DNA from: Candidatus Hinthialibacter antarcticus
GTDB taxonomy: Bacteria; Hinthialibacterota; Hinthialibacteria; Hinthialibacterales; Hinthialibacteraceae
NCBI GenBank assembly: GCA_030765645.1
Contig: JAVCCE010000067.1
Location: forward strand, 1 to 62,467
DNA: 62,467 nucleotides
Direction of reading: 5' to 3'
The notes beneath the pieces were generated by a model. It worked only from the letters and a program-made list of their open reading frames with translations. It was not told the DNA's origin and did not search any database. A program made the position numbers and the translations under genes. This document shows positions 31,513 to 61,874 of this stretch, piece after piece; within the stretch, counting starts at the first letter, position 1; the number at the start of each line of letters is the position of its first letter.

Positions 31513-32103
31513 ATGAAAACTCAATCCGCACATAATTCTGGCAACCACTATAAAGCCGCATTCACGCTGATTGAATTATTGGTCTCGGTTGCGATTGTCG
31601 GTATTCTGGCGGCGATTGCGATTCCCAATTTTCAAAACTCCCTCGTAAAAGCGAAAATGGCCAAGGCCGTCGCTGACATGAACGCCCTCTGCACCGCAAT
31701 CGAAAGTTACCACATTGATAAAAACCGCTATCCCGCCTGGACGGAAATCGACGGGACGCATAAGAACCCGGTCGACCGCCGTCTAAACCCGCTGACCAGT
31801 CCCATGCCTTATATGTCCTCGATTCCTGTCGATCCGTTTATTTCGATATGGGAATACGCAGCCTACACGACGTATGATTACGTGGATGCGTGGAGTTCAA
31901 TTCATTATAAAAAAGATGAAATTTTGGATATCTCTTTCCGTTGTTCGGAGTGGCGGCTGGCCAGCGCAGGCCCGGACGGCGCCGTGACCTTTGGATCGTC
32001 TTTTTCTTTCGACGCGACCAATGGCTTGCGAAGCGCGGGCGACATCGTCCGCACCGGGCCGACGACGAAGTTCCCCTGCGTTCCTTTTTTACGGAACAAA
32101 TAA
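31513..32103 (+). CDS. GspG-like pseudopilin / type IV pilin-like protein
   Basis: 196 residues. Prepilin signal with cleavage expected before Phe17 in A-A-F-T-L-I-E-L-L; Glu at position +5 is present, but the residue before the cut is Ala instead of the usual Gly. The 25-residue hydrophobic helix is followed by KAKMAKAVADMNALCTAIESY and, near the C-terminus, ASAGPDGAVTFG, the style of GspG-like major pseudopilins. It stands alone, 16 kb from the gspHIJK operon; lineages with many such single pilins exist, so it need not work with that operon. A small hairpin (GCCC-gta-GGGC, 31489-31499) lies before the gene. Confidence 0.85.
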   Translation: MKTQSAHNSGNHYKAAFTLIELLVSVAIVGILAAIAIPNFQNSLVKAKMAKAVADMNALCTAIESYHIDKNRYPAWTEIDGTHKNPVDRRLNPLTSPMPYMSSIPVDPFISIWEYAAYTTYDYVDAWSSIHYKKDEILDISFRCSEWRLASAGPDGAVTFGSSFSFDATNGLRSAGDIVRTGPTTKFPCVPFLRNK

Positions 32104-47161: not shown

Positions 47162-47236
47162 AACCCGGTTAGTATATGGAGAAGCAGGGCGCTCCTTAAA
47201 GGTTCGTTTAGATTTATTTGCAATTTTTTTGCGCAC

Positions 47237-47270
47237 AAAAAAAGCGGGACGGCCAATTGACCGCCCCGCT
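47237..47270 (-). terminator. Intrinsic terminator of the gspHIJK operon
   Basis: A 28-base palindrome (AGCGGG...CCCGCT, fully paired with two wobble pairs, centre AATT) is followed on the minus strand by seven U. It lies 23 bases past the stop of the Pro/Thr-rich protein, ending the pseudopilin operon. Confidence 0.92.
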
Positions 47271-47293
47271 TTGTCGCGTTGTGATGAGTGGGT

Positions 47294-48604
47294 CTACTGT
47301 TCGGAGCGCTCGCGGAAGAACATGTTGGTGCGTTGATCGGGGCGGAAACCGCGGTCGCCGGGTTGGCGTCCCAGGCGCCGGTTTTGGGCCGGGTTGAATT
47401 GGCCGGTCGGGTCGATCATGGACGCTTTGGGGTCGGAGCGCAACACAATTGGCGCTACGCCGCGAATGGTCTTTTTGATTTTTCGCCCTTCGGTGATGCT
47501 TTCAAACTCAATGTCAACAATCACGCGGACCGCGCCGTCATAGGTTCGGCCTGGAACAAAAGCCAACATGCGGTCTTCTTCTAATGTTTCGATGAAGTCC
47601 GCTTCGCGGTCAGTAATCGATTGGTCAAACCCGCTGCCAATTTTAAAGGAACGAATATAGCCCACGTCTTGGGTCGCGCCCTTGTCGTCAATGTTGATGC
47701 GGATGCGCGCGTTGGGGTCGATGCGAGTGATATCCATTGGCTTGCCGTCAGAGCCGATGACCTGGACGTTCAGATAGGACAATTGGCGCGGCCCGGCAGC
47801 GTTGGCGAAATCGTCGGGGCTGACCGTTAACAATGGCGGGTTGGCGATGACTTGCACCGACTGCGCCATCAACTTCGGCGTCGGCGTCGGGGTCGGCGTT
47901 CCAGCGCGCGGGGTGGGTTCCGGCGTAGGCGGCGTACGGTCAGGTAAAGGAGGCTGCTCTGGAGTTGGCGTTGGAATTGGGGTCGGGGTGTTTTCGTCTG
48001 AACCGCCCGTGGAAGGCCGTAGCACAAAGTTATCAACATGCCCAATTGATGTGGGGTTGGTTCCCGTAAATTCAATTCGGATCAAATTGCTGGCGGCGCC
48101 GTTTGATGTCGATAACCCGGGTACCGGACGAAATATCTCTGAAATGGCTTTTTGTTCGGCGTCGCCGGGAGTGGTCGGAAATGTTAACACTTCGTCGTCA
48201 CCGACAAACACTTTAAATTGTCCGCTGATGACGTGGGCGCAAAATTCAACGCGATAGAAGTTTTGTCCTGAGAGCGTGTCGGTATTCGGCTCTTGCACAA
48301 TACTGTTGCCGTCTACAAAAACAGCGAAGTGATTTTGGATCAAGTTATTATCTGCGTCGACGTCAGGGCCGAGTTCTGTGCCCGTGGTGGCCGGGCTGTT
48401 GGTCATGATCCAACCCAGGGGGGGTGTGTCGCCTTCGAGGGACGTTTCAAAGTCCCAGTTTTTGGTCAAGTTGTTAAATGGCTCATCTCCGCCAATGCAG
48501 GAGTTGGTGGTGTAGACTTGGTCGACGCCGAATTGTCCATACGCCAGCAGGCCTGAGCCGACGATTAGGCAAATCCCGATCAGATAGAGGGCTTTTGCTC
48601 TCAT
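47294..48604 (-). CDS. Secreted protein with Pro/Thr-rich linker, unknown function
   Basis: 436 residues. Signal peptide (MRAKALYLIGICLIVGSGLLAYG). Residues 40-200 form a beta-rich N-terminal domain like a carbohydrate-binding or jelly-roll module (NWDFETSLEGDTPPLGWIM start; RIEFTGTN-x-TSIGHVDNFVL end). A linker of about 45 residues is nearly all Thr-Pro pairs with Glu/Arg. The second domain (about 245-400) contains VQVIANPPLLTVSPDDF and ADFIETLEEDRMLAFVPG. The C-terminus is Arg-rich. It follows gspK by 119 bases with AAGGA before its ATG and shares the terminator, so it is likely the last gene of the operon, perhaps a structural or substrate protein of that machine. Confidence 0.75.
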   Translation of the reverse strand: MRAKALYLIGICLIVGSGLLAYGQFGVDQVYTTNSCIGGDEPFNNLTKNWDFETSLEGDTPPLGWIMTNSPATTGTELGPDVDADNNLIQNHFAVFVDGNSIVQEPNTDTLSGQNFYRVEFCAHVISGQFKVFVGDDEVLTFPTTPGDAEQKAISEIFRPVPGLSTSNGAASNLIRIEFTGTNPTSIGHVDNFVLRPSTGGSDENTPTPIPTPTPEQPPLPDRTPPTPEPTPRAGTPTPTPTPKLMAQSVQVIANPPLLTVSPDDFANAAGPRQLSYLNVQVIGSDGKPMDITRIDPNARIRINIDDKGATQDVGYIRSFKIGSGFDQSITDREADFIETLEEDRMLAFVPGRTYDGAVRVIVDIEFESITEGRKIKKTIRGVAPIVLRSDPKASMIDPTGQFNPAQNRRLGRQPGDRGFRPDQRTNMFFRERSEQ

Positions 48605-48723: not shown

Positions 48724-51700
48724 TTATTCTGAAACGTAGACGGTCTCCAGTTTCCGTTGCGCGATGATATTGCCGTCGCTGTCAAATATGCGGCCTTGGG
48801 CAAGAATGCCGAATGCGCGTGATTTGACGGTGATTAAATTTGAGATTCGGTTCATCAATGCTTCCATGTCTTCGGTGGTCAGTTCGCGTCCCAGTTCTGC
48901 ATTGAGCCGATCACGCAGATCGCCGGGCAAGTCGGGCTTACCGTCAAGCGTCCGGTCGACCGGGCGGCGCAACGCAGCGGAAAAGCGCTCGCGGCGACGC
49001 AGGTGCGTCAACTGCGACATCAATGTTCCGATGTCGGCGTAGGGGCCGTCGTCGGGGGCGACCACGGGTGTGCTCAAATATACGTTATCGAAATCAAGTT
49101 GCGTATCCAAAATGTCCAACGGCTTTAAGTTCAATTTGTTAAAGCGGCGTTGCACAATGTCATCGAAGTTTTTGAAAAAGCGGAACTCGCGGCCCACGCC
49201 CATAAACTTAAACTCTGACATGGTGTCAACATTTTGGTACGCCGTACGAAGCCGATTGGCGTCGTTGCTGAGCATGTCGTCGTTCAAACCTTGTACGCCG
49301 AAACTCATGTCGCGGCCTGTGGGTTGGCGGCCTTCGATAATGAAGTCGGCGACCAAGTTGTTGAACAGTGAGCGTTCGATCAGCGGTTCAATCTGGCCGG
49401 GAGCGATTGGCGGCGTGCTGGGCAGGGCCGACAGCACTTCGCGCGACGCGGTGTTGACATTGATCTTGCCGGGCAGAATGCCGTTCAGTCCAGTGGTCAC
49501 CATGTTATACAACTGAGTATATTGGTTTTCCCATTGGTCGAGGCGTTCGCGTTGCGCCAATTGCAAGCGGCGCGGTTCGTCGTTGGTTGACCGTTGCGCC
49601 AATTGCGGGTTGGGCATGATCTGACCGCGCTCCATGGCGGCGTCTTCGAGCCGTTGGGGAATAATCGGCGTGTTGATGGTTTCAAATTTATTGCCGGTAT
49701 GCAAGCGCGAAATCTCGCCGATGGTCGCCAGCGGGCCGTTTTTCACATACGCGGTATTGTCGATGATATCGAGCGGATCGCGCGAGCTGCCGCGCAGGTC
49801 GAGACGGCGACGCGGATAGGCGGGGACGTAACCGCTGTTGTCCCAACCGGGCGTTCCGGCGATCAGACGTTGGAACGCGTCGGGATCATTCTTGCGGCGT
49901 TGGCCTTCGCCTTTGACGCGGCCAAATAACTCGATGCCCTTGAAGAAGTAATTATCGTCCGCCACCGAACCTAAATCGGTTCGGGTGGTTCCAGCGGCTT
50001 CATAAAACCCGTCGCCGTCTTCATCGGTGATGGGGAACGGAACGCGGTTGTCTAAATCGGGCCGATTGGCGACATTTAATACGCGGTTCAGCGGCATTTT
50101 TAAGTCTGGCGTACTTTTGCGCATGACCACGGTGATTTCGACCATCGGTTCTGAGTCGGTGTCATTGCGAAGATCCTGCCACAATTCGCGGTCTTCTTTG
50201 CGCAGGTCGACCGTAAACGCGGTGTCGCCGTTGCGTAATTTCGCAAAGATGGGAACCTTGCTGCGCCGTTGTCCGGCGGGCTGATAAATATTGTCGGGGT
50301 TGGCTTCGATGTCTGCATCGTCATTGAGCGGGTTGCTGCCCGGGTCGATGATGCGAAACGCTGGTTCGATTAACACTTCGCCGACAGGCATATCAAACGG
50401 AATGCGGTCGCCGGGGTTCGCCGCGATACGGATGTTGCCGCCATCGTTTACCAAAATTCTCTCACGTGCGACGTATTGGCGTCCTAAGACACGCACGGTG
50501 AATTGGTCGTCGATGTTGGGGTCGTATCCCGCGCGTGTCAATTCACGCAAGCCCATACGCCAGACGAACGCTGTATAGCGAACGTCAGAGATGCGGTTCG
50601 GGCGTACATTCAGCAGGTTCTCAAAGCCGCCCAGCGTATCATAGAAAATGACTTTCTCGGCGCCGTCTTGAATGGCGGCTTCTTTCATCATGGAGGCGGA
50701 GCGTTCGAGGTTGCGGACCAGGTTGCGGTCGCCGCGCGCCATCTCTCTTGGGTAATCGAAGTAGTCGCCGATGAAGTCCCAGCCGTTCCACCAGGAATCT
50801 TTAAAGGAGGCGGCTAGGCCCGCCATGTCGCGGTCGACGAAGCGTTCGAGATCATCGCGAACAAAGTCGGTTTCAAGGCCGCGCGTACGGTCAGCGTAAC
50901 CGCCGATGGTATTGCGCCGGAGCTGGCCGGTGCGGCGGTTGGGCTGCATGTCGATGACGATGGCGTCTTTCGCGTCTAACTTGATGCTTGACGGAACCGA
51001 GCGGACGCCGCGTACTTTCCAGTCGGCGGGGCTGACGTCGAAATTGGTTTCAAAGTAGGTGGGGTCGGTGCGCTCGAATGATTCCATGCCCTTGTAGCCG
51101 GGCAGCGCAACGACGTCGATTCCCGCGCCGTTTTCTTGAATGTCAACAATGGCGTTGTTAAACGTGGTGCGGTACGTAAACGAGTCAACGTAATTGCCCG
51201 CCGGATCATAAAGGCTGATCTTCTTTTCGCGCGGATTATGCGTGAGTACGTCTTCTTGATAATCAAACAAACGGAAGCCGAGATCGCCCAATTGCGCGTT
51301 AGGGAACAAGCGGTCGGGGTCTAAGAAATCGTCGATGCTGTCTCCGATGGCTTGTTCTTCGATTTCCACCAGTAGAGGAACCAGGATGCGGTCTTCGGCT
51401 TCAGTTTCGAGTTTGGCGTAATTGTCAGTCAAGAAACTACGGAACCCTGCCAGATTGTTGACCAGCAGCATCTTGTTGTCTTCGAGGCGCAGTTCTTCGT
51501 TGCTGAGCGGGTTGCCCAAGCGGTCTTCCGCTAACAACGGCTCGGAGGGGACGCCCGCGCCGGGCAGCCCTTCGCCTTGCTTTAATTCAAGGCCGGTGTC
51601 ATCGGCCCATGCGGGTTTCATGCGGGCGATGATGGAATTTTCGTCATCATCAGGAATCATATAATGTCCATAGGGCGTGGTGATCGTCCAGCCGGACATG

Positions 51701-54700
51701 TTTATATCTTCGAGGCCCAGATTGACCAACTCGACGTATTGCGCATAAGGATTGATGAGTTCGATGCGGTCGATGGACGTTACATAATGGTTGTCTGGTC
51801 TCGGATCGGCTTCGTCAATCGGCGCCGCTTCGATGCGCAGGCTTAATTTTCCATTAGAACGCACCTGGACGCGGCCTACGCGGGGGTCTGAAAAGCGTTC
51901 GCTGAAATCAGGCGCGTTTCCCGGCCACCAACTCAGGCGGTAGGGAAGTATTAATTCAGAGGGTTGGTCGATGCCGTTGTTCCATTGCGCTGTATCGCGG
52001 CGAATGACTTCTTTGGTGAATGGGTCGGCAATCAAACTGATCTCTTGCAGCGTACCGTCGCTTGCGATGACATGTTTGTCGCTTTTAACGGGGAACGGCG
52101 CTCTCGAACCATTGAAGTAATAAGAGACTAATGGGTTGAGTTCATGTTTTGGGTGTAGATAGATGACAACGTCATAGTAGCCTTCTGGAATGTTTTCGAA
52201 ATTCCAGGTGGCGATTTCAGGTTGAATGCCGATGGTGGTATCTATTAACAGTTGCGGTCTGACGTTGGTGACCATGAAGATGGTCGCTGGCGCCATCGCG
52301 TCTAAATTCGCCAGAGAGAATACTGGGTTGAAGGTGTTAACAAAGCCATTGGGCAAGAACATGTGAGGGAAGGTCTCGCCCGTGATCGGGCTGGGCGCCA
52401 GGCCCCAGTTGGTGTCTACCGGATAGTTCGGTAATGGAATTTGACCATCGTCTTGAAACCCGCCGCCTCGGCGGCCCGGCTCGAAACGGTTGCGCTTCAT
52501 GGTTGCGACGGGACGTATGCTTGGATTGGTTGGATCATATTCGATTGACTCGAAGACGTCTTCCATTTCCAGGCGGATAACCGGCTTGGCCATGACTTCG
52601 TTGATGCGAATCGATTCAACGCCTTCAAACGTGATTTCCATACCGGTTTGAGGCGGGTTCGGCAGCAACAACCGCATTTGCTCCTCGAACAATTCGAGTT
52701 CGCGGCTGCCCCGGTTGGGGCCGGCCAGGAGGCGCGAGTGCATACGGAACGCGCGCTGGCGGCTTGAGAACAGATTAAAGGTTTGGCGCGTGACCGGGTC
52801 AGACAAGACAATGTCGTCTTCGCTTTTGCCTAACAGTTGGCGGACATCGCGTTCTTCGGTCGGGGTGTAGGGCGCCCAGGTGTCGATGGAGTCAAACAGA
52901 TTGAGCGCGATTTGAAATTCGGGCGGATCTTCGTCCATGCGCCCGTCTTCGTCGTCGTCGTACGCGGCGATGTAGCGTTCGCCGACTTCATCGACTTCGC
53001 CGTCGCTATCATTGTCAACGCCGTCCATTTCGGGCGCGTACATCGCGGCCAAAACCTGCGGGTCATAAAAATCAGCATAGCCATCGTAATCATCGTCGGC
53101 GAAATTGGTGACGACCATATCGTCGCGGCGTTGCGGTTCTGCAATGATATCGCCTTCGGGGGTATCTTCGTCCGCATCAATATCAGCGCCCAAACCGGGG
53201 AAACCGTCGCCGGAGAGGTCGCCCCAGGCGTCTTCGCTGACGTGCCATTCGGGGTCGAACGCCAAAAGGCCGTCGCCGTTAAAGTCGCCCAAATCGTCGA
53301 CCAGTCCGTCTTTGTCGTCGTCTTGACCGTTGCCTTCGATGTTCATGCCCGAGCGAAATTCGCGGTCGTTTTCGTTGCGGTAGCGTCCGTCAAAGCTATC
53401 TTCATTTTGATCAAGGGGTAGACGGCGTAAGCGCCCATCGTTGTCGTCGCCGCCGCGGGCTTCATCTTCAAGGCTGCCGTCCTGGTCGTCGTCAATGCCG
53501 TTTTCTAATGTGAGGGGCGAACCCACGTCCGGTTCCGCAAATCCGTCGAAGTCGCCGCTGGGGTAGAAGTTGCCGTCCCAGTCGTCGGAGGGTTCATCAA
53601 CCAGGCCGTCGCCGTCGTCGTCGATGCCATTGGGTTTTCCGTTCAGCACGTCCGATTCGGCTTCGGGCTGCCAATCGTTATCCTGGTCAACTTGCAGGGC
53701 GAACAGGTCTTCGATGCGCAGCGGCGGGCTGTATTGAAAATCAGCGATGATGTCTATACCGCTGCTGCTGCCGCCTTGCGTCCAGGTGTCTTGTGCGCGC
53801 CAGTTGTAACCGGCGTTGGGGTTGATTTTTCCTACTTCATTGAATCCACTGGAAAGCGGGCCGGAAATTTCATCGGACTGGCTCCAGATGGTGGTAGAGT
53901 CGCGCAGGATTTTAAATAAACTCGGCGGCGGCGATTGAATGCGCGGCGGAACTCCGCCAGTGTCGCCGTTGATGAAGGTCAACAGGTTGAGGTCTTCATG
54001 GGTCGAGAAGGGGCGGTCGTCGCCCTTCGGCCTGTATACATTAAATTCGCTGGGGTCGTCGATGCCTTCATCTTCTTCGTCGATAAAGCCGTCGCCGTCG
54101 TCGTCGATTTTGTTGCCGGGGCGAAACTGGTCTAAGTTGCCTTGTTTTTGGTCGATGGCCTGTGAAATCGGCGAACCGCTAGTGCTGATGGTGGTTGCGC
54201 CGATGTACGTTTCGTCTTCTTCATTGGTAAGCCCATCATCGTCGTCGTCGAGGTTATTGCCGACAATGGCGAAGGGCTCGCCGTTAAAGGTTTGGGTGTC
54301 AAATACATTGCTCATTTTTTGAATATCAAGAATCGTGGGCGAGTTGTTGTTATTGTCGTCGAAGCTTTCACGGCCGGGTTTGCTGTTGGTTTGACCGCCG
54401 TCGCTGGCGCTGCCGTTACGGAAATTGACGATATAGCGCGCCAGTTGCTGCGCCTCGGAGGAACTAAAAGTTCTCACGCTGTTATTGCGCGTATAAGAGA
54501 CGACCCGGTTGTAGAGAAAGACCGGCAAGTCGAGTTCGTTGGGGTGAACGCCCTGGTTATAGACGTAACTGCCGTCGAGGCCTGAGTTGTTGCCTGCATA
54601 GTTGAGGTTGATTTTGCTGGATTCATCAAACACGCCGACCAGGTCGCCGTCGTTGTCGTACCCGGTACCGTTGGGGAAGAACAACCCATCGCGGCGGCGG

Positions 54701-55329
54701 TCGGGTTGGTCTTCATCAACGCGGAAATCTTCGTCGTCATCTGAGGATGACAGCAAATCATCGCCGCCGTCGTCAACAATGCCGTCTTGGTTGTCGTCGA
54801 TGCCGCCGAGTCCGGGTTTGCCGTCGCCGCGGCCCGATTGGCCGAGTGCGCGCGAGCCAGTGACGTCGCCGCGCGGGTCTTCATCAATGCCGCGCGGGAT
54901 GGGCGTCGGCACAAACTTAATGCCCGTACGGTTGACGACGGTCGAGGGGCGCGAGTCTAACATGAAGGCGCTGGCGTCGTAGGAAATATTATTGTTTGCC
55001 TTGCCTTGATAGCCGATGTACCACGGGTCGAGTTGAGAAACATAGCGGGGTTGCAGGCGGCCCATGACGTCGTGTTGTTTGGTCGGGTCGAGGTCGTCCG
55101 CGAGCTGGGCCAATACCCCTTGCACCGCTGATTCGGCAGCTTCTTCGACGTTGACGCTGGCGGCGTAGTTCTGCACGGTGAATTCTTCCATGCGGATGGT
55201 ATAGACGAAGCCCGCCATGATCGCTGCAAAAATCGTCAGCAGCGCGGTGACTGTCAGCAGGGCGACGCCCCGTTCGGAATCCCGCCTGCGGGGTTGAATG
55301 GATTGGGCTGTGTTTCGGTCGCTCATCAT
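48724..55329 (-). CDS. Giant GspK-like minor pseudopilin with Ca-loop repeats and lamin-tail-like domain
   Basis: 2201 residues; known GspK proteins have about 300-330. N-terminus: ERG-VALLTVTALLTIFAAIMAG, cleavage before Val22 and Thr at position +5 in place of Glu, the hallmark of GspK. Then DESSKINLNYAG near 235, typical of GspK. Residues about 176-805 hold some 16 Asp-rich loops of the form G-I-D-D-D-G-D-G-x-x-D-E, with one more near 1773. Around 1190-1230, IELINPYAQYVELVNLGLEDINMSGW resembles a lamin-tail domain. Near 1955, GKINVNTASREVLSALPS is the helix-hairpin T2SSK motif. Fourth in the H-I-J-K order. Known GspK caps the I-J tip and binds calcium; that the enlarged form does the same is inference. 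AAGGAA precedes the ATG. Confidence 0.85.
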   Translation of the reverse strand: MMSDRNTAQSIQPRRRDSERGVALLTVTALLTIFAAIMAGFVYTIRMEEFTVQNYAASVNVEEAAESAVQGVLAQLADDLDPTKQHDVMGRLQPRYVSQLDPWYIGYQGKANNNISYDASAFMLDSRPSTVVNRTGIKFVPTPIPRGIDEDPRGDVTGSRALGQSGRGDGKPGLGGIDDNQDGIVDDGGDDLLSSSDDDEDFRVDEDQPDRRRDGLFFPNGTGYDNDGDLVGVFDESSKINLNYAGNNSGLDGSYVYNQGVHPNELDLPVFLYNRVVSYTRNNSVRTFSSSEAQQLARYIVNFRNGSASDGGQTNSKPGRESFDDNNNNSPTILDIQKMSNVFDTQTFNGEPFAIVGNNLDDDDDGLTNEEDETYIGATTISTSGSPISQAIDQKQGNLDQFRPGNKIDDDGDGFIDEEDEGIDDPSEFNVYRPKGDDRPFSTHEDLNLLTFINGDTGGVPPRIQSPPPSLFKILRDSTTIWSQSDEISGPLSSGFNEVGKINPNAGYNWRAQDTWTQGGSSSGIDIIADFQYSPPLRIEDLFALQVDQDNDWQPEAESDVLNGKPNGIDDDGDGLVDEPSDDWDGNFYPSGDFDGFAEPDVGSPLTLENGIDDDQDGSLEDEARGGDDNDGRLRRLPLDQNEDSFDGRYRNENDREFRSGMNIEGNGQDDDKDGLVDDLGDFNGDGLLAFDPEWHVSEDAWGDLSGDGFPGLGADIDADEDTPEGDIIAEPQRRDDMVVTNFADDDYDGYADFYDPQVLAAMYAPEMDGVDNDSDGEVDEVGERYIAAYDDDEDGRMDEDPPEFQIALNLFDSIDTWAPYTPTEERDVRQLLGKSEDDIVLSDPVTRQTFNLFSSRQRAFRMHSRLLAGPNRGSRELELFEEQMRLLLPNPPQTGMEITFEGVESIRINEVMAKPVIRLEMEDVFESIEYDPTNPSIRPVATMKRNRFEPGRRGGGFQDDGQIPLPNYPVDTNWGLAPSPITGETFPHMFLPNGFVNTFNPVFSLANLDAMAPATIFMVTNVRPQLLIDTTIGIQPEIATWNFENIPEGYYDVVIYLHPKHELNPLVSYYFNGSRAPFPVKSDKHVIASDGTLQEISLIADPFTKEVIRRDTAQWNNGIDQPSELILPYRLSWWPGNAPDFSERFSDPRVGRVQVRSNGKLSLRIEAAPIDEADPRPDNHYVTSIDRIELINPYAQYVELVNLGLEDINMSGWTITTPYGHYMIPDDDENSIIARMKPAWADDTGLELKQGEGLPGAGVPSEPLLAEDRLGNPLSNEELRLEDNKMLLVNNLAGFRSFLTDNYAKLETEAEDRILVPLLVEIEEQAIGDSIDDFLDPDRLFPNAQLGDLGFRLFDYQEDVLTHNPREKKISLYDPAGNYVDSFTYRTTFNNAIVDIQENGAGIDVVALPGYKGMESFERTDPTYFETNFDVSPADWKVRGVRSVPSSIKLDAKDAIVIDMQPNRRTGQLRRNTIGGYADRTRGLETDFVRDDLERFVDRDMAGLAASFKDSWWNGWDFIGDYFDYPREMARGDRNLVRNLERSASMMKEAAIQDGAEKVIFYDTLGGFENLLNVRPNRISDVRYTAFVWRMGLRELTRAGYDPNIDDQFTVRVLGRQYVARERILVNDGGNIRIAANPGDRIPFDMPVGEVLIEPAFRIIDPGSNPLNDDADIEANPDNIYQPAGQRRSKVPIFAKLRNGDTAFTVDLRKEDRELWQDLRNDTDSEPMVEITVVMRKSTPDLKMPLNRVLNVANRPDLDNRVPFPITDEDGDGFYEAAGTTRTDLGSVADDNYFFKGIELFGRVKGEGQRRKNDPDAFQRLIAGTPGWDNSGYVPAYPRRRLDLRGSSRDPLDIIDNTAYVKNGPLATIGEISRLHTGNKFETINTPIIPQRLEDAAMERGQIMPNPQLAQRSTNDEPRRLQLAQRERLDQWENQYTQLYNMVTTGLNGILPGKINVNTASREVLSALPSTPPIAPGQIEPLIERSLFNNLVADFIIEGRQPTGRDMSFGVQGLNDDMLSNDANRLRTAYQNVDTMSEFKFMGVGREFRFFKNFDDIVQRRFNKLNLKPLDILDTQLDFDNVYLSTPVVAPDDGPYADIGTLMSQLTHLRRRERFSAALRRPVDRTLDGKPDLPGDLRDRLNAELGRELTTEDMEALMNRISNLITVKSRAFGILAQGRIFDSDGNIIAQRKLETVYVSE

Positions 55330-55440
55330 TCTGCGTTCCTTTACTCACACCTGTACTTAGAGTCTTGCTTAGGTTTCATCAAAGGTCGGCGGGCGAAGCC
55401 CGCTTGTTCGCCGCGTTGGCTTCAGCGCCCGGCTCGGCGT

Positions 55441-56700
55441 TTAGAGGCCAATGCTGCGGTAGTTGTTCGGTATAAACACGCGGGTGGTGTATGGTTGGGG
55501 CGGATCGGTTCGCTTGCGGTCTTGTACGAATAACGTAATTTCGACCATATTGGGCAAACCGTCCGTCCGTTTCAATACCCGGTCGCGTACTTCGCGATAC
55601 TCCAAGTTATTCAATAGTAATTGTGGGTTTGTGACCAAAAATCCATTGCCAGCCCCTTGGCGTGGATACATGTCGTCGGGTTCATTGACGATGATGTTTT
55701 GGAACCCGCGCCGGTTGCTGCCTTCTATGCTGCTATTGGCGGCGAAATCATTGAATAAGGCCGAATCAGGCAACACCACTGCAGTTTCGCGCGATGAATC
55801 CCATTCGGTGGTCCAGCGCCAGCCGCCCCGGTTGTAGTCGTAATACCAGTAACGAAAACGCAGACCGCGAATGTTGTACGCCAGCGCTTCAAAGATTTTT
55901 CCCGGTGAATTGTTCGACTGGACGTTTCGCGCGTCCAAACTGCCAAACTTAGCGCCGTGGTCCCAATTTTCGATAGAGGTTTTAACCATGTTGGCGCTGA
56001 CGTTGACGCCGATGGGAAGAATCGGCGGCAAGAGCCGCTCGCGCGATTGGTTGTCGATGAATTGGCCGAAGTCGCCGATTTCGGTGGCGTCATTGCCTCC
56101 GCCGTTGAGCGAAAGGGTTTGTCCGCGGCGAATCAAGCGCGTTCCAGTGGGGTCGAGGCCGTACGAGATTTCTTGCAGAATAACGTCGCCGGAATTTTCG
56201 ACCGCGCTGACGAAATGCAAAATGTCGCTGGGGACGGCGCCCAGGTCTTCGTCGACCAGTTCGTCGCCGTCGTTGTCGAGGCCGTCAAGAATTTCTTCGT
56301 CTTCATCGCCGTCGCCGTCTTCATCTTTGAAAGCGCCGGGTACGTTGTCGTCGTTGCCATTGTCAACAATCAGATCGCGGTGGATGCCCGCGAAGCGAAA
56401 GCGCGGCCCGGTGGGGTTTTGTTGTCCTGGAATCACGGCGATCACGGAGTCAGGCGTTAAGTAAGCCGCGCGGATTTCCGCCGAGATGAACCCCAAGGCG
56501 CTGCGCGCGGTTTCGTTCATTTCGAGGCGGTTGACGGCGATGTCGCGGGCGCCCAATACCGAACGGAAGGTTTGCGCCGCCATGCCGGCCAGAATCGAAA
56601 TGACCGCGACGGAGACTAAGAGTTCCACCAACGTGAAGCCCAATCGTTTGTCGATTGTCTTCGGGCTGCGCGGAATGGGAAACGGGTTTGCGTTCATCAT
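55441..56700 (-). CDS. GspJ-like minor pseudopilin with short Asp-rich insert
   Basis: 419 residues; typical GspJ has about 200. Prepilin signal R-L-G-F-T-L-V-E-L-L-V-S, cut before Phe22, Glu at +5. After the helix, NRLEMNETARSALGFISAEIR is GspJ-like. Residues about 115-150 carry KDEDGDGDEDEE and GLDNDGDELVDED, two or three calcium-type loops. The frame opens at TTG 56712, but the AAGGAC at 56709-56704 is the ribosome binding site for ATG 56700 or 56697. A perfect small hairpin lies in the 111-base gap before gspK (55389-55403). Confidence 0.85.
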   Translation of the reverse strand: MMNANPFPIPRSPKTIDKRLGFTLVELLVSVAVISILAGMAAQTFRSVLGARDIAVNRLEMNETARSALGFISAEIRAAYLTPDSVIAVIPGQQNPTGPRFRFAGIHRDLIVDNGNDDNVPGAFKDEDGDGDEDEEILDGLDNDGDELVDEDLGAVPSDILHFVSAVENSGDVILQEISYGLDPTGTRLIRRGQTLSLNGGGNDATEIGDFGQFIDNQSRERLLPPILPIGVNVSANMVKTSIENWDHGAKFGSLDARNVQSNNSPGKIFEALAYNIRGLRFRYWYYDYNRGGWRWTTEWDSSRETAVVLPDSALFNDFAANSSIEGSNRRGFQNIIVNEPDDMYPRQGAGNGFLVTNPQLLLNNLEYREVRDRVLKRTDGLPNMVEITLFVQDRKRTDPPQPYTTRVFIPNNYRSIGL

Positions 56701-56726
56701 CACGTCCTTCAATCTTCCTGGTTCGC

Positions 56727-58265
56727 TTATTCGACGCCGACGCTTGAGACCAAGCCGCGCGGTTGCCCGCTGGTCAGCGTAAACGACAACGAGGGGTCGC
56801 TCAGGTTGATGAATCCGACAAGGACAAATTCATCGGTGTAAAAATCTTCATCAATGACGCCGTCGAAGTCGTTGTCGATGCCGTCGAGTTTTTCTTCGTC
56901 AACGCCCCATTCGATGGAGCCGTATGAAATACGCTGGCGGCGAATTTCGCTGGGATCGGTTGTCCCTAGTGAATAACGGTCGCGTGGGTCGACGCGGGTG
57001 ATGTCATTCTTGCCGCCTTCCCAGTCTTCGTCGTTGTCTTTGCCGTCGCCGCCCCAGGTGATGACGATTTCAACTCGTCGCCAGCCGGGCAAGGGCGCTG
57101 CGATGCAGTCTTCATCCACCAGGCCGTCTTGCGTTGGCGGACGGGTGAAGGCGCGTAAAAAGCCCGTCCCGCTTTGTTGGCGGGTGGGGACTTTAAAGTC
57201 CATATCGAGACCATCGGGCAATTCTTCGTCGACGAAGCCGTCGCCGTCGTTGTCGATGCCGTCGCCCAGGTCGGGAATGCCGTCGCCGTTGACGTCAACC
57301 AAGCCCCAGCGCCCGTTGTCGGGCACGACGCCGACGCGAATCTGCCAGCCATAACGGTCGTACGGCGGCGGGAACTTCGCAGGCGAGAAGGGGAAACGCG
57401 CCAATTGGCAATCTTCGTCGACGAAGCCGTCTCCGTCGTTATCGCGTCCGTCCCAGATTTCTTCGTCGATGCCTTCGTCAATCGCGCCGTCGCCGTTGTT
57501 ATCAATGCCGTCAGCAACCGCAGGCGTTTTTGAATCATCGTCGTTGTCTTCTCCGTCGCCATCGTTGTCGACGCCGTCGCCCGCCAGGGTGGGCAGAAAG
57601 ACATTGGTCCGCGGAATTCGAACGGACGGCAAGCGAGTGTCTTCGTCAATTAATCCATCATTATCGTTGTCGATGCCGTCGGCGTATTCTTCATCGGTGC
57701 GCGGTTCGGGGTCGTAACTGAGGTTGCCGTCGGGGGCATATTTTGAGAACCAGGGCGGCACGGAGTTCACGTCAATCGACCAGCTGTCGCCGTTGTCGTC
57801 GATGACGCCGTCGCCGTCGTCGTCCATGCCGTTGTTGATGACGCCCGACATGCCCAAGCGGTGCGCGAGCGCGTCGAATTCAGGGCCGCCGTCATAATCC
57901 ATGTCGGGATAGCCGTTGTGGTTCAGGTCGAATTCATTGCGGGTCAAACTCGGGTTATAGACGTCGTTATTATTATCGTCGTCATAGCCATTGCCCGGCA
58001 GAGGGACAATCACGCTGTCCGCGCCGGGAATGATGGGAAAGTTGCGGGGGTCGTTTTTAAGCCCTTCAAACATACTTTGCGCAAGCAACGAAGCTTGGGT
58101 CACGTCTTGCGCCCGATGGCTGGCTTCGATGCCGTAGGGAAATACGCCTACGATCGACAAAAGCCCCAGCGTGAGCATCACGGCGGCAATCATGACCTCC
58201 AACAACGAAAAGCCGTCTTCGTTGCGGGTGCGCTTATGGGTTCGGGCTGAATACTGTCGCGGCAT
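56727..58265 (-). CDS. GspI/PilV-like minor pseudopilin with many Asp-rich loops
   Basis: 512 residues; known GspI has about 120. Prepilin signal E-D-G-F-S-L-L-E-V-M-I-A, cut before Phe19, Glu at +5. After about residue 90 it carries ten or so repeats such as GMDDDGDGVIDD, GIDNDNDGLIDED, GIDNNGDGAIDEG and GIDNDGDGFVDEE, spread over residues 90-360, with spacers that look like date- and form-like linkers rather than folds. The C-terminal 60 residues return to pilin-like beta sequence. GGAGGA lies before ATG 58265, so the longer frame to 58361 is rejected. Confidence 0.85.
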   Translation of the reverse strand: MPRQYSARTHKRTRNEDGFSLLEVMIAAVMLTLGLLSIVGVFPYGIEASHRAQDVTQASLLAQSMFEGLKNDPRNFPIIPGADSVIVPLPGNGYDDDNNNDVYNPSLTRNEFDLNHNGYPDMDYDGGPEFDALAHRLGMSGVINNGMDDDGDGVIDDNGDSWSIDVNSVPPWFSKYAPDGNLSYDPEPRTDEEYADGIDNDNDGLIDEDTRLPSVRIPRTNVFLPTLAGDGVDNDGDGEDNDDDSKTPAVADGIDNNGDGAIDEGIDEEIWDGRDNDGDGFVDEDCQLARFPFSPAKFPPPYDRYGWQIRVGVVPDNGRWGLVDVNGDGIPDLGDGIDNDGDGFVDEELPDGLDMDFKVPTRQQSGTGFLRAFTRPPTQDGLVDEDCIAAPLPGWRRVEIVITWGGDGKDNDEDWEGGKNDITRVDPRDRYSLGTTDPSEIRRQRISYGSIEWGVDEEKLDGIDNDFDGVIDEDFYTDEFVLVGFINLSDPSLSFTLTSGQPRGLVSSVGVE

Positions 58266-58279
58266 GGGTTCCTCCGAGT

Positions 58280-59089
58280 TTAACTCTCTTCGTCTAGCAG
58301 ATCGTTGGGCCAAAACCCGAATACGGCATAATCGTAAACCCGGGTTTTTCCTGTTAACCACAATATCTCAATGGTATTAATTTTGTATCTTTCGTTTGCG
58401 TTTTCTTCATCTTTGGCGAACGTGTTCAAGTTTTGGCTGACTAAATCGTCATACGAACGGGTCTCGTCGCCTTTTTTGAAAATTGCGCTGTCTTTGGCCA
58501 TGTGAAGTATGGCTTGACGGTCTTTGGGACGGGCCGATTGTTCGCCGCCCAGGAAATAAATTTTACTGAGTTGACCGCGTGGATTAAATTGAATATATAA
58601 GGGTTGCGATTCGTCGTCGTCATTAAATTCGCTAATTAAGTCTGTGCCGACATCGACCAGCGAGACGCCGTCCGGCATCAGGTCGGGGTCGGTAATAATA
58701 AACGTGTTGGGGCCGCCGTCTTTTGAACAATAGGCTTCTTCGTCAAAGTTAAATTCTTCGCAAATTTTGCCTTCGATCCAGATGCGGGCGGGTTTAATGC
58801 GCTGGCCGGAGGCGTCCTCAATTTTGCCCGGGTCAATCACCACGCGGCGCGACTGGCGCATGGCGATGGCCATTTGTCGGGCTTGCACTAAATTGGTGTT
58901 GATGACGGCCGTCATGGACGAGACGCGGCTGCTGTTGATTTGGCCCATATAGGTGACGGCGCCGATTCCGGTCATCACGCCGATAATGCCGATGACGACG
59001 ATGATTTCCACCATCGAAAATCCGGCGGTCGAACAGCGGCGCTGGCGCCGCTTCGCTTGTATATCGTCTTTGGGTTGAACGTCTTTCAT
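58280..59089 (-). CDS. GspH/FimT-like minor pseudopilin
   Basis: 269 residues. Prepilin signal S-T-A-G-F-S-M-V-E-I-I-V-V, cut before Phe24, Glu at +5; a 23-residue positively charged leader. The helix is followed by NTNLVQARQMAIAMRQSRRVVIDP, the GspH/FimT hallmark. Asp-rich loops of the kind in the next three genes are absent, apart from EFNDDDES. It is the first gene of the operon and lies 14 bases upstream of gspI. In known systems GspH joins the tip I-J-K trimer to the shaft. Confidence 0.85.
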   Translation of the reverse strand: MKDVQPKDDIQAKRRQRRCSTAGFSMVEIIVVIGIIGVMTGIGAVTYMGQINSSRVSSMTAVINTNLVQARQMAIAMRQSRRVVIDPGKIEDASGQRIKPARIWIEGKICEEFNFDEEAYCSKDGGPNTFIITDPDLMPDGVSLVDVGTDLISEFNDDDESQPLYIQFNPRGQLSKIYFLGGEQSARPKDRQAILHMAKDSAIFKKGDETRSYDDLVSQNLNTFAKDEENANERYKINTIEILWLTGKTRVYDYAVFGFWPNDLLDEES

Positions 59090-59671: not shown

Positions 59672-60415
59672 GTGTTTCTACGAACTATTGTCTTAACAAT
59701 TGTTATTTCAGCCATTTGTCTGCCAATTAGCGCACAGCAGGGGTTTGAACTAAAAGACGGGAATACTTTAGTGTTTCTGGGAGACAGCATTACCCAGGCG
59801 GGAACGCAGCCTGAGGGCTATATAACGCTATTCAAGTTATTTTGCGGCGTGAACGGCTATGACGTCAATATTATCAATGCCGGAATCGGCGGTCATAAGT
59901 CTAACGATATGCTGGCCCGGCTCGAAAAAGACGTGTTGGCGCATAAACCTGACTGGGTCAGTTTCTCTTGTGGAGTCAACGATGTCTGGCACTCTTTTAA
60001 CCCAAAATTGAAGGGCGTTCCATTGCCGGATTACAAGAAAAATATGACGGAAATCATTGATAAGATTCAACAAAGCGGCGCGAAGGTGCTGTTGTTGACC
60101 GCAACCCCGATCTATGAAAACCTGCAAAGCGACCAAAATAAGAAACTTGCCGATTACAACGAATTTTTGCGGGACTTTGCTAAAGAGAGAGGGCTTATGC
60201 TCTGCGATTTGAGTAAGGCGTTTCATGACCGGTTGTCAAAAAAGATGTTTCCAGACAAAAAACTGCTCACCACCGACGGCGTACACATGAACCCGCGCGG
60301 CAACCGCTTGATGGCCCGCGGCATCGTGATGAGCCTGGGCGCGACTTACCAGGAAAGACGCCGCGCCGAAAACCGTTGGGAACTGGTAAATAACATGAAA
60401 GAGATGGGGGAATAA
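59672..60415 (+). CDS. Exported SGNH/GDSL-type hydrolase
   Basis: 247 residues. Signal peptide (FLRTIVLTIVISAICLPISA). SGNH blocks: FLGDSITQAG with catalytic Ser near 38, the Gly of block II in NAGIGGHKSND, Asn of block III in CGVNDVW, and the C-terminal D-G-V-H in TTDGVHMNPRGN. Such enzymes remove acyl, often acetyl, groups from sugars or lipids; substrate unknown. The start is GTG 59672, with AGGGAG upstream. One base separates its stop from the sulfatase ATG, so both act together, plausibly de-esterifying and desulfating the same polysaccharide. Confidence 0.9.
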   Translation: MFLRTIVLTIVISAICLPISAQQGFELKDGNTLVFLGDSITQAGTQPEGYITLFKLFCGVNGYDVNIINAGIGGHKSNDMLARLEKDVLAHKPDWVSFSCGVNDVWHSFNPKLKGVPLPDYKKNMTEIIDKIQQSGAKVLLLTATPIYENLQSDQNKKLADYNEFLRDFAKERGLMLCDLSKAFHDRLSKKMFPDKKLLTTDGVHMNPRGNRLMARGIVMSLGATYQERRRAENRWELVNNMKEMGE

Positions 60416-60416
60416 A

Positions 60417-61874
60417 ATGACTACGTTTATGGATGATAATTCAACGGCTTCGACAGGCCGTCGCCGTTTTCTCAAAACCGCCGCCGCCAGCGTTGCGCTC
60501 CCGATGATGAATTTTGCGGCGAACCCCCTGCGCAGCGCCGCCGCCGGCAAACGCAATATAATTTTTGTTTTGATAGACGACATGCGGGCGGATTCAATGA
60601 GTTGCATGGGCCACCCGTTTTTACAGACCCCCAACCTCGACCGGCTCGTAGGCGGCGGCGTGTTGTTTAACCACGCTTACGTCACTACTTCGCTGTGTTC
60701 GCCCAGCCGCGCCAGCGTACTCAGCGGACAATACGCGCATACGCACGGCGTGATGGACAACAGCACGTTGCTGCCGCAAGGTACGCCGATTTTTCCGGTG
60801 GAATTGCAAAAAAACGGCTATGAAACCGCTTTTATCGGCAAGTGGCACATGGGCGGCAGCAGCGACGCGCCGCGTCCCGGCTTTGATCATTGGGTGAGTT
60901 TCAAAGGACAGGGCGTTTACAACAACCCCACCTTTAACATCAATGGGAAATCCGTCAAGCGCGAAGGCTATATGACCGATTTTCTGACGGGGTACGCCGA
61001 AGACTTCATCAAGCAAGATCACGACAAGCCGTACTTCATGTATCTGTCGCATAAAGCGGTGCACGCCGAGTTTTCCCCTGCGGAGCGTCATAAAGATGCT
61101 TACAGCGATGTGAAAATCGAGCACCCCGCTTCGATGGCGAACACCAAAGAAAATTACGAAGGCAAGCCGGAGTGGGTGCGCCGCCAGCGTCATAGCTGGC
61201 ACGGCGTGGATTACATGTACCACGACAATACCGATTTTGATAACTTCATCCTCGATTACAACCGTACCATGTTGGCGGTCGATGACAGCGTTGGGCAGCT
61301 GATGGACGTGTTGGAAGAACGCGGCGAACTCGATAATACACTCATTCTGTTTATGGGCGACAACGGCTTTTTGCACGGAGAACACGGCCTGATCGACAAA
61401 CGCTGCATGTATGAAGAATCCATCGCGGTGCCTTTGATCGCGCATTGCCCCGAACTCTTCGAAGGCGGGCGCCGCACCGACCGTATCGGTCTCAACATTG
61501 ATATCTGCCCGACCATTCTCGAAGCGGCGGGCGTCGAGGTTCCCGGCAGCGTCCAGGGCGAATCGTTGCTGCCTGTTTTGCATAGCGACGACGCCAGCTG
61601 GCGCGAGGGCATGTTGTATGAATACTTCTGGGAGCGCGCATTTCCGCAGACGCCAACGGTGTTGGGCGTACGCACCGAGCGCTACAAATATATGAACTAC
61701 CACGGCGTCTTTGATCTCAACGAATTATACGATCTCGAAAACGACCCGAAGGAAATGAACAACCTGATCGACGATCCAAAGCATTTGGACGTACAGCGCG
61801 ATATGCACAAACGCTTGCTTGCGTTACTCAAAGAAACCGGCGCCAGCATCGTCCCCAGTTTCAAAGCGGGGTGA
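60417..61874 (+). CDS. Tat-exported type I sulfatase
   Basis: 485 residues. Tat signal G-R-R-R-F-L-K-T-A-A-A followed by a hydrophobic stretch. Sulfatase core: NIIFVLIDDMRAD with the metal Asp pair, LCSPSRASVLSG in which Cys of C-S-P-S-R would be turned to formylglycine, GKWHMGG and FMGDNGFLHGEHG. Cys-type, so it needs a formylglycine-generating enzyme or anSME, neither in the window. Family likeness is to iduronate-/N-sulfoglucosamine-type sulfatases acting on carbohydrates. It follows the SGNH gene by one base. GGGGGA before the ATG is the ribosome binding site. Confidence 0.95.
   Translation: MTTFMDDNSTASTGRRRFLKTAAASVALPMMNFAANPLRSAAAGKRNIIFVLIDDMRADSMSCMGHPFLQTPNLDRLVGGGVLFNHAYVTTSLCSPSRASVLSGQYAHTHGVMDNSTLLPQGTPIFPVELQKNGYETAFIGKWHMGGSSDAPRPGFDHWVSFKGQGVYNNPTFNINGKSVKREGYMTDFLTGYAEDFIKQDHDKPYFMYLSHKAVHAEFSPAERHKDAYSDVKIEHPASMANTKENYEGKPEWVRRQRHSWHGVDYMYHDNTDFDNFILDYNRTMLAVDDSVGQLMDVLEERGELDNTLILFMGDNGFLHGEHGLIDKRCMYEESIAVPLIAHCPELFEGGRRTDRIGLNIDICPTILEAAGVEVPGSVQGESLLPVLHSDDASWREGMLYEYFWERAFPQTPTVLGVRTERYKYMNYHGVFDLNELYDLENDPKEMNNLIDDPKHLDVQRDMHKRLLALLKETGASIVPSFKAG

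Follow-up and report, generated by a model that had tools for sequence, protein, structure and literature searches.

The 62,467-nucleotide window analysed here (contig JAVCCE010000067.1 of Candidatus Hinthialibacter antarcticus, from a draft genome of 5.15 Mb in 78 contigs) carries five minus-strand genes in the order H-I-J-K-X, running from 59,089 to 47,294. With moderate confidence, we read H, I, J, K and X as one operon whose products form an oversized tip, braced by calcium, on a type IV filament, either a pseudopilus or a pilus. Calcium has been found at single sites in type II secretion system (T2SS) pseudopilins, as well as in PilY1, and the question at stake is whether it braces or switches type IV filament tips in general. 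Here, calcium-type loops stud I, J and K, three of the four predicted tip subunits, and as judged from their sequences such subunits predict a calcium-braced tip. The presence of three loop-free sister sets in the same genome makes this a natural experiment with internal controls. In addition, the 2,201-residue GspK bears on how far a tip subunit can grow and yet keep its pilin start and GspK end.

Gene map and subunit identities

Features are listed below with window coordinates, strand and, where relevant, the evidence for each assignment.

58280–59089, minus: H, GspH/FimU-type minor pilin without calcium-type loops (motif, profiles)
56727–58265 (from ATG), minus: I, GspI/PilV-type minor pilin, 512 aa, 9–10 loops
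56841–57905, minus: loop region of I, residues 121–475 (fixed-rule loop count)
55441–56697, minus: J, GspJ/PilW-type minor pilin, 418 aa
56245–56325, minus: loop block of J, residues 125–151 (invariant Asp)
48724–55329, minus: K, giant GspK-type minor pilin, 2201 aa
52921–54798, minus: loop region of K, residues 178–803, 12 loops
51670–51753, minus: lamin-tail-domain-like (LTD) stretch within the K insert (LTD profile)
49996–50025, minus: isolated loop of K at residue 1769, DEDGDGFYE, not conserved class-wide
49168–49530, minus: C-terminal GspK piece of K, GKINVNTASREVLSALPS (hhalign 3e-6)
47294–48604, minus: X, putative exported protein, 436 aa, with a Pro/Thr-rich PTPTPTP linker, loop-free
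47234–47278, minus: intrinsic-terminator-like hairpin after X (14-bp stem and T run, fold z-score -4.0)
31513–32103, plus: separate G-like pilin, loop-free, negative control (N_methyl 3.9e-8)

The terminator-like hairpin 3′ of X likely marks the end of the H-I-J-K-X unit. Upstream, GDSL-like and sulfatase-like genes (59672–60415 and 60417–61874) point away from H, and this gene pair is also found near H in several family members.

In comparison with profiles of canonical pseudopilins, each of the four pilins scored best against its own letter (hhalign H 4e-14, I 3e-8, J 7e-10, K 7e-6), in support of the letters that the earlier note had given them, though for I the canonical J followed close behind (1e-7 versus 3e-8). 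H, I and J have the prepilin N-terminal motif (GFSMVEI as the N-methyl motif of H), and K has a K-type start lacking Glu5, with Thr at mature position 5 in place of Glu. Among family models, H matched XpsH (3.9e-7) and GspH (4.6e-6), both below cut-off, the best profile for I was type_IV_pilV (4.3e-9, below cut-off), and J matched N_methyl (1.2e-7). X adjoins K in the same family and in the sister family, and has no Pfam or NCBIfam match.

AlphaFold models of J and I reached mean pLDDT values of 54.5 and 39.6, respectively; in the low-confidence J model, the loop block lies between two predicted beta strands (101–105 and 157–168). A Foldseek search of the J model against the PDB returned no pilin and no match below E 0.001, so with models of this quality the pilin fold is confirmed for I and J no further than the first helix. 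By sequence, the I profile had no match in the PDB, and a loop fragment had one EF-hand match at chance level (E 0.58).

Loop counts and consensus

Loops were counted by a fixed rule, D-x-[DN]-x-D with G, N, D or R at position 6, or with an acid or Asn at position 9. This gave counts of 9 for I, 2 for J and 14 for K (about 25 in total), and 12 of the 14 in K fall within residues 178–801; positions 52,900–58,000 of the window hold every loop except two of those in K. No loop was found in any of seven H orthologues, nor on sequence inspection in the G-like pilin, confirming the earlier observation that I, J and K have loops and that H and the G-like protein lack them (9/2/14 versus 0/0). The earlier note had about ten loops in I and two to three in J; its figure of about 17 for K is reached only when degenerate copies are included. 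Exact D[ND]DGDGxxDE loops are present twice each in I and K, and most loops are variants of this form.

Under a slightly different core rule, the counts for I, J and K are 10, 2 and 12, where shuffling each protein 500 times gave expectations of 1.03, 0.22 and 1.94 and maxima of 4, 2 and 8, respectively. The excess is about ten-fold for I and about six-fold for K. The J count is not significant taken alone, as shuffled J sequences also reach two.

Anchoring 165 distinct loop copies on D.[DN].DG gave the consensus [DN]-G-[IVL]-D-[DN]-D-G-D-G-x-[IV]-D-E. Outside the anchor, position 8 is I or V in 50% of copies, position 9 is D in 74% or E in 10%, position 10 is E in 55% and position -1 is G in 55%. 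The consensus fits the published calcium-loop pattern Dx[DN]xDGx[ILV][DSTN] (PMC3123361), with which the non-anchored positions 8 and 9 also agree, and proteins of many different folds bind Ca2+ through Dx[DN]xDG loops (PMC3123361). In the ligand pattern of positions 1–9 the loops resemble those of EF-hands, dockerins, TSP3 repeats and calcium blades, but they differ in matching none of these Pfam families and in lacking a conserved acid at EF-hand position 12, where G (20%) and D (16%) are found. Because position 12 is rarely acidic, loop affinity may be low. The Pfam EF-hand, dockerin and TSP3 models did not match I, J or K, and I had no EF-hand match at E values up to 1. On the comparison with metal-binding loop consensuses that the earlier note had proposed, the Dx[DN]xDG calcium-loop pattern is present, and the position-12 acid and the family-level matches are absent.

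Conservation and age of the loops

Wherever the relatives' genes are readable, I, J and K have loops and H has none, and the loops of I, J and K occupy fixed positions throughout the class. The aspartates at the predicted metal-ligand positions are the residues best conserved through the class, and aspartates in general are preferentially invariant in the three loop-bearing subunits: 39 of 82 in I (48%, versus 14.4% of other residues), 14 of 36 in J (39% versus 9.4%) and 67 of 254 in K (26% versus 7.5%), compared with 1 of 24 in H (4% versus 9.4%). In J, residues D125, D127, D129, D133, D138, D141, D143, D145, D149 and D151 are invariant among 10 sequences with identities down to 27%. For J, then, it is conservation and not count that makes the loops significant, and here the conservation is telling. 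This class-wide invariance indicates that the loops are old, fixed parts of I, J and K. The positional conservation also rules out a recent spread of repeats, and with it the earlier suggestion of a coordinated spread of the same repeat into the three subunits, in so far as recent copying was meant.

The same data bear on the possibility that the loops serve as acidic spacers, shaped by loose selection on composition and binding no defined metal. The proteins are indeed rich in Asp (16% of I and 11.5% of K), and Asp-richness is among the reasons that such motifs arise easily (PMC3123361). However, shuffled sequences of the same composition yield only about one-tenth of the I loops and one-sixth of the K loops, and ligand columns are invariant among sequences 27–50% identical while neighbouring positions vary. 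We consider such spacers very unlikely.

A giant K with GspK pieces at both ends

The N-terminus of K aligns with canonical K at an hhalign E value of 1.2e-7, and residues ~1,934–2,054 align with canonical K columns 314–416 at 3e-6. The K family profiles gave matches below cut-off for both NCBIfam T2SS_GspK (7.3e-6) and Pfam T2SSK (0.011). The GspK pieces at the two ends flank an insert of about 1,700 residues, which holds the loops and the LTD-like stretch. An LTD profile matches seven of eight K orthologues (best E 3.3e-6), the Hinthialibacter K itself scoring 3e-4, below cut-off. The best reading of these alignments is that K is a GspK split by an insert of roughly 1,700 residues.

Loops in the host genome, the class and other lineages

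We counted loops genome-wide by DNA pattern search. The simple form Dx[DN]xDGxx[DN] has 116 matches in the genome, many of them at even intervals along other proteins, in the manner of propeller blades, and at this number the simple motif is nothing unusual in this genome. Matches to the tandem form, G-x-D-[NDSG]-[DN]-x-D-G-x-[hydrophobic]-D, number 10, all in I and K. The earlier note had warned that repeats common in unrelated proteins of this genome would rob the link to the tip of meaning: they are common in the simple DxDxDG form, but the tandem form is confined to these subunits. In thirteen relatives, 84 of 100 tandem-form matches lie in the operon's I, J or K by hand tally, and most of the others belong to different giant exported proteins.

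A 2,156-residue exported protein of this genome, encoded on contig C74 at 91844–98314 (locus L091, 5845–12315) beside a CTP-synthase-like gene, has two tandem-type loops and is kept by family and order relatives. Kinship of K with this protein was considered and rejected, as the likeness is confined to the loops.

The operon or parts of it occur throughout the class. Of the 14 class genomes, 11 yielded a full-length J orthologue, whereas none of 372 other genomes did. Matches to I reach well past the pilin helix in 12 of the 14 class genomes; outside the class, among the matches listed, they cover the N-terminal part only. A scan of genome contigs for K gave at least five loci. Two class genomes (G003 and G009) have K and no clear I or J, probably owing to contig breaks, and a third (G011) has no clear J.

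Outside the class, there are single lineages whose ordinary-looking sets have between one and three loops in a J, I or K protein. Genome G278 (L161, 6189–7641) has three loops in J and one in I within a T2SS-like locus, and part of the loop region of this J aligns with the loop block of the Hinthialibacter J. Genome G236 (L170, 6540–11949) has three loops in K and one in J. One of these two minor-pilin sets has a K of 1,305 residues. Loops in tip pilins are thus not unique; what stands out is how many there are here, that three subunits have them and that they are fixed class-wide.

The filament machine served by the operon

The genome has three canonical T2SS loci (C15, C63 and C8) with pseudopilins of their own, all of them loop-free, which serve as internal controls. 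Among the part of the window's ORFs that was scanned, there are no T2SS core genes (C, D, E, F, G, L or M); E, F and pseudopilin sets are located at three other loci. As no core machinery adjoins the operon, the tip location of I, J and K is drawn from homology. That the operon stands alone, and that the pseudopilins of the canonical loci are loop-free, speaks against the earlier view of I, J and K as tip proteins of an ordinary type II secretion system.

One refinement, which we consider possible though short of an even chance, is that H-I-J-K supplies the minor pilins at the tip of the type IVa pilus of this genome, equivalent to FimU-PilV-PilW-PilX, with K or X replacing PilY1. PilV is the best-scoring profile for I, contig C11 has PilB/PilT-type ATPase genes with no minor-pilin set beside them, and PilY1 is likewise large and has calcium loops. 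Set against this are the best scores of H to XpsH/GspH and of K to GspK, as well as the GspK-type pieces that K retains at both ends. PilY1 (PF05567) had no match in the genome, and control genomes were equally silent.

A second refinement would have H-I-J-K serve a separate filament machine driven by an ATPase encoded on contig C50 (L113, 9274–14584), where a 915-residue ORF combining TPR repeats with a T2SSE ATPase is flanked by two genes, one for a TPR protein and one TolB/FGE-like. The sister family has genes of both these types directly upstream of H, and their homologues here, 44% and 47% identical, are the ones beside the C50 ATPase, whose neighbourhood is kept in three family members. 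However, the ATPase was never found adjoining HIJK in any genome, and the link runs through the two neighbour genes. A dedicated ATPase is thus a lead and not proof, and we rate this refinement as rather doubtful. Improbable, in our estimate, is a further extension: a distinct type IV filament of the class, with its own ATPase, whose extracellular head of three minor pilins assembles only on loading about 25 calcium ions, which would make external calcium the licence or the switch for the filament.

A proposed calcium-braced tip and its precedents

In the calcium-braced tip that we favor, I, J and K would retain the pilin helix, by which they pack at the end of the filament, and their outward parts would be enlarged by insertions, above all the ~1,700-residue insert of K. 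Some 25 short Dx[DN]xDG loops would hold these outward parts together, each predicted to bind one Ca2+ after the protein exits the cytoplasm, and the tip would therefore fold and stiffen only where Ca2+ is available. Its probable job would be that of a robust, protease-resistant head, such as an adhesin or ligand binder, at the end of the filament, with X as a possible partner.

We infer such calcium-dependent folding and bracing from precedents in the loop pattern, in GspK and in PilY1. XcpX/GspK at the T2SS tip has three Ca2+ sites, with Ca2+ binding demonstrated by calorimetry (PMC6211770). In Myxococcus, calcium stabilises the complex of PilY1 and minor pilins at the tip (PMC8833165). Mutating a Dx[DN]xDG-type loop removes calcium binding by PilY1, and twitching motility in Pseudomonas requires this binding (PMC3248442).

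These PilY1 precedents, twitching in Pseudomonas (PMC3248442) and tip-complex stability in Myxococcus (PMC8833165), could also be taken, by analogy, to suggest that the tip senses calcium, with loop occupancy switching filament assembly, retraction or substrate release beyond any stabilising role. The many loops, presumably of graded affinity, would suit such a role. However, sequence cannot separate sensing from bracing, and structural sites too would show fixed positions and near-invariant ligands; we regard sensing as unlikely.

Comparison with known systems

The GspH-I-J-K pseudopilus tip (XcpUVWX) shares with the operon its gene order, its prepilin motifs, a K without Glu5 and, in GspK, known calcium. 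It differs in that no core genes lie alongside the operon, which has the extra gene X, and in that about 25 loops are distributed over I, J and K here, compared with two or three sites in K there; K is also 2,201 residues long here, with its ~1,700-residue insert. The FimU-PilV-PilW-PilX-PilY1 tip resembles the operon in being a stand-alone minor-pilin operon with a PilV-like I and a very large protein in the set, and the Dx[DN]xDGxxD calcium loops needed for PilY1 function are of the type found here. In contrast, the loops here are within the pilins themselves, and X is without a Pfam match.

Verru_Chthon cassette proteins (TIGR02596, TIGR02599) also have prepilin motifs, and their D and C models weakly match the N-termini of H and J. 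Membership was rejected, as the scores were 28.2 of a cut-off of 70 and 29.8 of 256.5, and the alignments covered no more than about the first 60 positions of the profiles. A literature search on the Verru_Chthon cassette found no paper.

Modular type IV pilins such as PilB of Streptococcus sanguinis (PMC8179133) likewise have a bulky module on a pilin core, a predicted tip location and a metal site. The additions here differ in being Dx[DN]xDG loops and an LTD-like piece, and in affecting three subunits at once. The most extreme multi-domain pilin reported in that work is an 860-residue protein (PMC8179133), and the Hinthialibacter K is far larger.
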